47,274 bases of DNA from the IMG/VR virus record IMGVR_UViG_3300045973_001178, positions 1 through 47,274 of that record, one strand, 5' to 3'. Source of the DNA: a virus. The notes under the pieces are model-generated. The model was given only the letters and a program-made list of their open reading frames with translations. It did not search any database and was not told the DNA's origin. The position numbers were made by a program, and so were the translations under genes. This document shows positions 18,234 to 43,484 of the stretch, piece after piece; position 1 is the stretch's first letter; every line of letters begins with the position of its first letter.

Positions 18234-18253
18234 TTACTATAATGTTTTATACT
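18234..18253 (-). promoter_or_regulatory. Promoter-like element, GTATAAA-N4-TATA family
   Basis: Reads AGTATAAAACATTATAGTAA on the minus strand, preceded by ATTAAAAATTA. It begins at the stop codon of the double-HTH gene and lies 15 nt upstream of the 322-aa gene. It marks the junction between replication/transcription genes and the virion block, where a late promoter is expected. Confidence 0.65.
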
Positions 18254-22386: not shown

Positions 22387-22952
22387 GCACTTTTCATCCA
22401 GCTCTCTAAGAGCACAGTCCAGTCACGATCACATATAGCATGTTGGGTATTCCACGGCTGAGGGATGAGCCACCCCATCCCACCTGCAGCGCAAAATTGG
22501 TCAATATTATCGTCACGGTCGTCGAGAAGAATGGCGTTGGGATTAGCTAAGAGCCGCTTGTGTGCAGTCATCAGGATGACCTTGTCCATGTACTGCGGGA
22601 GGCACCTTTCAATCCAGCGCAGCTTCCCAAGCCAGGCTACCGGGTCTTTCATCGGGTAGGACGTGAGGTATACCTCGTCGGAGTAGCTCTCCACGATCTC
22701 GAGCACGTCGCTGCCGCGGCGGTCCCACTTCAGATCCTCCCAAAAACGAATCGTGTGACACTCCTTGATCAAGGAGTCCATGGTGTGGCGCCCATTGGTG
22801 GCTGCCACAGCCTCAGGGAACATCTCATAGTTACCGCGTTTGTAAGGGTAGTTGGCGATGTCGTACGGCAGGCCCAGCGCGCTCTGCAGGCCACCGACGA
22901 AGTCCACGAGGACCCCATCCATGTCGAGAAAAACTATAGGTTTATCGCTCAT
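22365..22952 (-). CDS. 5'(3')-deoxyribonucleotidase (NT5C-like HAD), 195 aa
   Basis: Haloacid-dehalogenase motifs are clear: VFLDMDGVLVDF (motif I, both Asp), LTSYP (motif II Thr/Ser) and ILLDDRDDNIDQF (motif IV). Phage and organelle 5'(3')-deoxyribonucleotidases of this type remove phosphate from dNMPs. It could balance nucleotide pools with the dNMP kinase at 33546-34208 or degrade an unwanted nucleotide. The gene overlaps the polymerase start by 22 nt and has an AAAGGG site. Confidence 0.85.
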   Translation of the reverse strand: MSDKPIVFLDMDGVLVDFVGGLQSALGLPYDIANYPYKRGNYEMFPEAVAATNGRHTMDSLIKECHTIRFWEDLKWDRRGSDVLEIVESYSDEVYLTSYPMKDPVAWLGKLRWIERCLPQYMDKVILMTAHKRLLANPNAILLDDRDDNIDQFCAAGGMGWLIPQPWNTQHAICDRDWTVLLESWMKSACKMISN

Positions 22953-42593: not shown

Positions 42594-42623
42594 TTGACAC
42601 ATCACGGCGCGCCGTGATATAAT
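42594..42623 (+). promoter_or_regulatory. sigma70-type extended -10 promoter with operator spacer
   Basis: TTGACA (42594-42599) and TATAAT (42618-42623), both consensus, are 18 bp apart, with TG at 42615-42616 forming an extended -10. The spacer is mainly the palindrome at 42601-42618. The start of transcription is expected at about 42630, the first base of the radical SAM start codon. Confidence 0.8.
42601..42618. promoter_or_regulatory. Perfect 18-bp palindrome, probable repressor operator
   Basis: ATCACGGCGCGCCGTGAT is an exact palindrome of 9-bp arms and lies between the -35 and -10 boxes, overlapping the first base of the -10. A dimeric repressor bound there would block polymerase. No repressor gene is recognised in this cassette, so the regulator may be a host factor or may lie elsewhere. 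Confidence 0.65.
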
Positions 42624-42629
42624 GGTGGC

Positions 42630-43484
42630 ATGCCATGGTATGATATACAACCTGTCCGTCTGCCCCTCGCCCGCGTCTTCGTGCAAGACAACATCTTCTG
42701 CCCGCATGATCAGCACGCCTACTTCGATGAACCCGGCCTGACCACGCCATTCTACGACGAGGTACATATATCTTGTACATTCACGTGGGATCGCCAACGC
42801 GCTATTTATCTCCAGGAGAAGTGGACCCACCGCGGTTCCGTAGTTAAGATCGGTGGCCCCGCATTCGGCTCGCCGGCTACCGACTTCATTCCGGGCCTCT
42901 ACACCGACCTGTCCGTCACCTTCATGACCCGCGGCTGTGTGCGGCACTGCAAGGCCTGTTTCGTGCCGACAATCGAGGGCGCATTCCGTGAATTGCAATA
43001 CATACACCCAGCGTCCATAATACAGGATAACAATCTCCTTGCTTCTTCCGACGCCCACTGGGACCGCGTCATGGCGATGCTGAGGACCCGGCACACGATC
43101 AAGTTCAAGGGCGGCCTGGACGTCCGGCTGCTTTCACCGAAGCGTATCGCCGACCTCGCGGCCATCAGGCGGCACATCGCTGAGCTATTCGTCGCGTGCG
43201 ATAAGCCCGGTGATCTGTCAGCTTCACTGGCGGGCATCACGGCTCTCAAGGCCGCGGGGTTCCCGCGCTGGAAGCTGCGCTGCTACGTCATCATCGGCGC
43301 CGACATGGTCGAGGAGGAAGACCGCCTCCGGAAAATTTTCGCGGCCGGCGCTATCCCGTTCGCTCAGCTGCTGCGGGATCCCGACGACAAACTCGAGTAT
43401 AGTCAGGAGTGGCGCAAGTTCCAGAAGACGTGGTGCCGGCCGCCGGCGACCAAATCCCACTGCAAGAAATTAGGAATACTATGA
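42630..43484 (+). CDS. Radical SAM protein, 284 aa, probably leaderless
   Basis: C103, C107 and C110 in RGCVRHCKACF form the CX3CX2C 4Fe-4S motif that binds S-adenosylmethionine. QDNNLLASSDAHWDRVMAML and KFKGGLDVRLLS follow as in MiaB/Elp3-like phage radical SAM proteins, and the C-terminal half has the expected barrel segments (CYVIIGADMVEEED). The start ATG is the likely first base of the transcript, with no Shine-Dalgarno site. The substrate is unknown: tRNA, nucleotide or small peptide are options. No SPASM domain is seen. Confidence 0.85.
   Translation: MPWYDIQPVRLPLARVFVQDNIFCPHDQHAYFDEPGLTTPFYDEVHISCTFTWDRQRAIYLQEKWTHRGSVVKIGGPAFGSPATDFIPGLYTDLSVTFMTRGCVRHCKACFVPTIEGAFRELQYIHPASIIQDNNLLASSDAHWDRVMAMLRTRHTIKFKGGLDVRLLSPKRIADLAAIRRHIAELFVACDKPGDLSASLAGITALKAAGFPRWKLRCYVIIGADMVEEEDRLRKIFAAGAIPFAQLLRDPDDKLEYSQEWRKFQKTWCRPPATKSHCKKLGIL

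Follow-up and report, generated by a model that had tools for sequence, protein, structure and literature searches.

A phage radical-SAM gene with a predicted leaderless start behind a consensus promoter and two upstream dyads conserved in a related phage

Results

Genes for a portal, a capsid, a terminase, a DNA polymerase, a helicase and SbcCD mark the window, i.e. the whole 47,274-base stretch of DNA analysed here (virus record IMGVR_UViG_3300045973_001178), as tailed-phage DNA. Most of its genes run leftward, and a rightward cluster occupies about 41.4−47 kb at the right end of the contig. The record is a fragment, and neither an integrase nor a clear repressor was found among the window proteins scanned. 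The phage also encodes a GroEL-like chaperonin (34609−36132, minus strand; PHROG 5725, E 9e-51). For comparison we used a single relative, G001 (IMGVR_UViG_3300045973_001103, 66,412 bases), which was found by a terminase search and shares with the window 82% identity in TerL, 96% in the capsid protein and 56% (E 2.8e-108) in a radical-SAM protein, whose gene lies in the same divergent context in both phages. The features bearing on the analysis are listed below.

18253−18834, minus strand: 193-aa protein in which two stretches resemble a helix-turn-helix, its GerE match being sub-threshold; conserved in G001
18768−19337, minus strand: NusG-like protein over the Pfam cut-off, neighbour of the 193-aa protein; conserved in G001
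41325−41353, minus strand: leftward promoter PL, TTGACT-17-TAAACT; conserved in G001
41368−41396, plus strand: promoter PR1, TTGACT-17-TATACT, serving the gene that opens the rightward cluster (41458−41853); TTGACT-17-TATCAT in G001
42420−42446, no strand: conserved noncoding block around TTTTGACGAAAATCAAGCAAAA, from the G001 alignment
42480−42512, no strand: operator-like dyad O1, TACTAATTT-N5-AAATTAGTA-N3-ATTAGTA; also in G001 (L011, 6556−6588)
42567−42589, no strand: dyad O2, TGGTAATTTGTTATGAATTGATA, 9-5-9, degenerate, just upstream of the −35; perfect in G001 as TATCAATTT-N5-AAATTGATA
42594−42599, plus strand: TTGACA, the −35 hexamer of PR2, the promoter of the radical-SAM gene; in G001, TTGACA 17 nt before TACAAT
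42601−42618, no strand: perfect 18-bp palindrome ATCACGGCGCGCCGTGAT, candidate operator or chance, sharing one base with the −10; absent from G001
42615−42623, plus strand: extended −10 TGATATAAT, with TG at 42615−42616 and TATAAT at 42618−42623; G001 counterpart TGATACAAT
42630−43484, plus strand: gene for the 284-aa radical-SAM protein (PHROG 9298, C103-C107-C110), its ATG placed on the predicted start of transcription
43481−43696, plus strand: next gene, encoding a small lipoprotein-like protein and overlapping the radical-SAM stop (ATGA)

The gene read from PL has a leader and a Shine-Dalgarno (SD) sequence (GAGGAG) before its ATG at about 41302. Downstream of the first rightward gene, two consecutive hairpins (CTCCAGTTCT-ACC-AGAACTGGAG and ACAATCATGC...GCATGATTGT) occupy 41963−42050, and G001 carries two hairpins of other sequence at the same place (AACTAAAGCC...GGCTTTAGTT and ACAACCATGC...GCATGGTTGT). 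Such retention of position with divergence of sequence has the look of compensatory change, pointing to a structured RNA or a terminator; a long-leader radical-SAM transcript would also exist if PR1 reads through these hairpins. Noncoding blocks CACCCTTGTCCATTCCC and CCGATAGGGTGGTCCTGGCG, within 42183−42342, are conserved in G001 and could pair mutually. The fold of 42150−42425 was only mildly better than that of shuffles (z −2.1 for the window sequence and −0.6 for that of G001), and no known RNA family from Rfam matched within 41000−43600. In G001 (L011, 4311−6444, minus strand), the radical-SAM protein ends in a tail, L-x-D/E-P-D-R, similar to that of several small, Cys-rich proteins encoded downstream, and these tails apparently overlap the signal for translating the gene that follows.

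The radical-SAM identity proposed in an earlier note on this DNA was supported by the match to the PHROG 9298 profile (E 4.3e-20, residues 80−269) and by the iron-sulfur cysteines C-x3-C-x2-C (C103, C107 and C110), which were invariant, as was a D-N-N motif, in homologue alignments of 30 and 27 sequences. Homologue scans returned none with one sequence, nor with two sequences in genomes, and succeeded with a five-sequence alignment. The window protein fell below the cut-off of Pfam PF04055 (E 0.018), for which the best relative scored 1.8e-6. A structure predicted from the 27-sequence alignment (mean pLDDT 89) consisted of alternating strands and helices, and its best match among solved radical-SAM structures was weak (QueE, 5th5; E 0.017, probability 0.91); searches of solved structures gave no match informative about the substrate, and the best viral structural match was a methylthiotransferase model (E 6.8e-5). 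The protein falls in one branch with mobile elements from bacteria, Clostridia among them (39−48% identity in the best segment), and in the loci examined its bacterial relatives adjoin ParA/ParB or DNA methyltransferase genes, indicating mobile elements. The annotated PHROG 9298 proteins of Bacteroides phages and of the Methanomassiliicoccales virus vir215 resemble it in the profile match (E 4e-20) and in the C-x3-C-x2-C, E-G and D-N-N motifs, but the annotated phage members are only 24−26% identical, and the window protein stands in a distinct branch. Judged by the PHROG 9298 match, the C-x3-C-x2-C motif and the confidently predicted structure, the gene is real. It is conserved at 56% identity in G001, and the Fe-S motif is invariant in relatives; its product is a putative mobile-element radical-SAM enzyme that would cleave SAM by a [4Fe-4S] cluster. 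Four more distant capsid relatives yielded no match to the gene and no convincing dyad in searches run without a positive control on records that may be fragments.

PR2 was the sole 12/12 match to the σ70 consensus in the whole window. Its TTGACA and TATAAT are separated by an 18-nt spacer (42600−42617), and 6 nt lie between TATAAT and the ATG at 42630, so that the expected start, 7 nt past the −10, coincides with the A of this ATG. All elements that the earlier note had described, including the palindrome between the hexamers, were found in place, and the absence of an SD site that it had claimed was borne out. Of the window's 59 other gene starts, 34 were predicted to pair with the anti-SD at −6 kcal/mol or better; at the radical-SAM start the pairing reached −5.4, solely via a GGTGG abutting the ATG. 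These bases sit upstream of the predicted start and would be missing from a leaderless transcript.

The leaderless reading gained its main support from G001, in which the same gene follows TTGACA-17-TACAAT-GGTCGAC-ATG, i.e. a consensus promoter whose −10 is again extended and an ATG placed where transcription should begin, without an SD. In both phages the sequence thus places the promoter-set start of transcription at the start codon, at the same ATG distance, despite a shift of the whole unit: in the flank alignment the TTGACA of the window stands opposite CTGACA of G001, and the G001 promoter and ATG lie ~25−30 bp further downstream. The window protein carries 8−10 extra N-terminal residues, predicted to be disordered, compared with homologues. 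A joint move of promoter and start codon is the outcome expected of selection for a leaderless start, and the shift may reflect such selection; local duplication is another route by which it may have arisen. Of the relatives found, G001 alone carried the leaderless arrangement. Most distant homologues, on viral as well as bacterial contigs, are preceded by an SD and lack a long palindrome upstream, and SD sites are common elsewhere in the phage; therefore, within the material examined, the layout is peculiar to this gene in the window phage and G001. Taken together, the two-phage comparison makes the leaderless start well supported at the sequence level, with transcription most likely beginning on the A of the ATG at 42630.

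The palindrome fared differently. The earlier note had read it as an operator at which a dimeric repressor would silence the gene tightly, and comparison did not support this. That note had also assumed an early gene and surmised a conditional function. The G001 spacer GACCCGGCCCAGTTTGA is not palindromic, and no site within 3 mismatches of the palindrome occurs in G001. A search for further copies likewise found none within 3 mismatches in the window, and among viral contigs the sequence recurred on a single unrelated one, outside a promoter. The first of these results ruled out a phage-wide regulon site and the second a widely used viral operator. As expected of an operator, the dyad overlaps the promoter; it is neither kept in G001 nor repeated in the window, either of which would lend further support without being strictly required.

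That the palindrome is in the spacer by chance, and stood out because many windows were scanned, is a serious contender, somewhat short of an even prospect; any regulation would then reside elsewhere, and a real leaderless promoter is compatible with it. Its absence from G001 and its occurrence outside a promoter on an unrelated contig fit this explanation, and such palindromes are not rare per window: dinucleotide shuffling of the 47-kb window produced at least one of 18 bp or more in 13 of 100 cases, and another perfect 18-bp palindrome, ACTCCTTGATCAAGGAGT, lies within a coding region at 22760−22777. Chance accounts less well for the exact position, the expectation for a palindrome centred in the PR2 spacer being ~1.1e-4 (3.4e-4 over the three promoters of the intergenic region). 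This low value is suggestive, not conclusive, because the palindrome was selected from many windows, and it keeps an operator role in play.

An operator at which a dimeric repressor occludes RNA polymerase, keeping the gene silent until some signal brings release, seems to us unlikely. The perfect dyad exactly within a consensus promoter (~1e-4 per promoter) argues for it, as does phage PY54, whose cI and cro give leaderless mRNAs with experimentally mapped 5′ ends and which has a single palindromic Cro operator of 16 bp (PMC4488713). Against it stand the lack of conservation in G001, the absence of a second site in the window and the failure to find a clear repressor or integrase among the proteins scanned from this fragmentary record. 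We regard the spacer palindrome as a lineage-specific operator at best, and it may be chance.

Upstream of PR2, the dyads O1 and O2 appear to be better operator candidates, being conserved in G001. O1, which the earlier note had overlooked, has identical arms, spacing and third half-site in the two phages, and the −35 follows it at a similar distance, 82 nt downstream in the window and 75 nt downstream in G001. Neither phage contained further copies of O1 or O2 at the threshold applied. The exact 9-5-9 dyad of O1 occurred in 34 stretches of viral contigs that were mostly AT-rich and unrelated; for this reason O1 was dropped as a family-specific motif across viruses and its matches outside G001 were left unused. 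In three stretches from contigs outside the phage pair (L024, L025 and L028), TACTAATTT-N5-AAATTAGTA is accompanied by a third half-site 3 nt off, which may mark a common type of binding site. O1 and O2 could instead serve replication or packaging. That 41300−42630 functions chiefly as an origin of replication or in another kind of DNA maintenance, with iteron-like O1/O2 and an incidental promoter, is improbable: AT-rich dyads, half-site repeats and several conserved noncoding blocks between divergent gene blocks would suit it, but three conserved consensus promoters aim at conserved open frames, each dyad is single-copy and a clear GC-skew switch was not seen.

Two conserved neighbours, the NusG-like and the 193-aa proteins, could act on transcription. 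The latter is a possible binder of the conserved dyads, and a link of either protein to O1/O2 is speculation.

Discussion

We consider it probable that the radical-SAM gene has its own leaderless promoter and is controlled via O1 and O2, with the palindrome as an extra operator if it functions at all. A strong dedicated promoter in the right-end rightward cluster would drive the gene, transcription would begin on the A of the ATG, as position and comparison suggest, and the leaderless mRNA would be translated without an SD. Control would probably be exerted mainly at O1 (42480−42512) and O2 (42567−42589) by a dimeric phage or host protein, of which the two-helix-turn-helix protein at 18253−18834 is one conceivable example. 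The spacer palindrome, if functional, would be a further operator that this lineage has acquired, and a dimer bound there would exclude RNA polymerase. The product would be a mobile-element radical-SAM protein, most relatives of which lie in ordinary SD-translated operons.

The classic leaderless phage mRNA made beside operators is that of lambda cI from PRM, a maintenance repressor gene with three operators that is unrelated to the radical-SAM gene. The telomere phage PY54 offers a closer likeness, with strong phage promoters, mRNA starting at the AUG and one palindromic operator nearby; it differs in being temperate, and its controlled genes encode repressors with Cro as a proven binder, with mapped 5′ ends (PMC4488713), whereas the gene here encodes an enzyme with a predicted start and a candidate binder. 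In Cluster O mycobacteriophages, the divergent SigA promoters PL1 and PR2 are predicted to start mRNA on the first codon base (PMC4351075). The divergent intergenic region, the predicted leaderless mRNAs and dyad repeats near some promoters recall our locus, but the 17-bp dyad of those phages is present in >30 copies per genome, mostly away from promoters, unlike the single-copy spacer palindrome (PMC4351075). By analogy, the window locus would work like PY54 and Cluster O, the parallel being one of arrangement and not a tested family membership shared with their regulators. Most likely, there is nothing out of the ordinary about the radical-SAM gene, which would be one more regulated leaderless gene of the sort already known from phages, comparable to PY54 cro/cI and to the Cluster O promoters. 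Among the papers searched, we found nothing pertinent on phage radical-SAM enzymes with leaderless mRNA.

More doubtful is a broader proposal, in which a movable leaderless unit of promoter plus ATG, two upstream dyads and an extra spacer operator in one lineage would let the enzyme be made under a programme distinct from that of SD-translated genes, e.g. when ordinary translation initiation is impaired.

Each part of the arrangement alone is already known, so that its general interest is moderate to low. If the model is true, the locus would provide a clean example of a two-phage comparison that speaks for selection of a leaderless start, and O1, O2 and the palindrome would be defined DNA sites with which to seek the protein that regulates this mobile-element radical-SAM enzyme.
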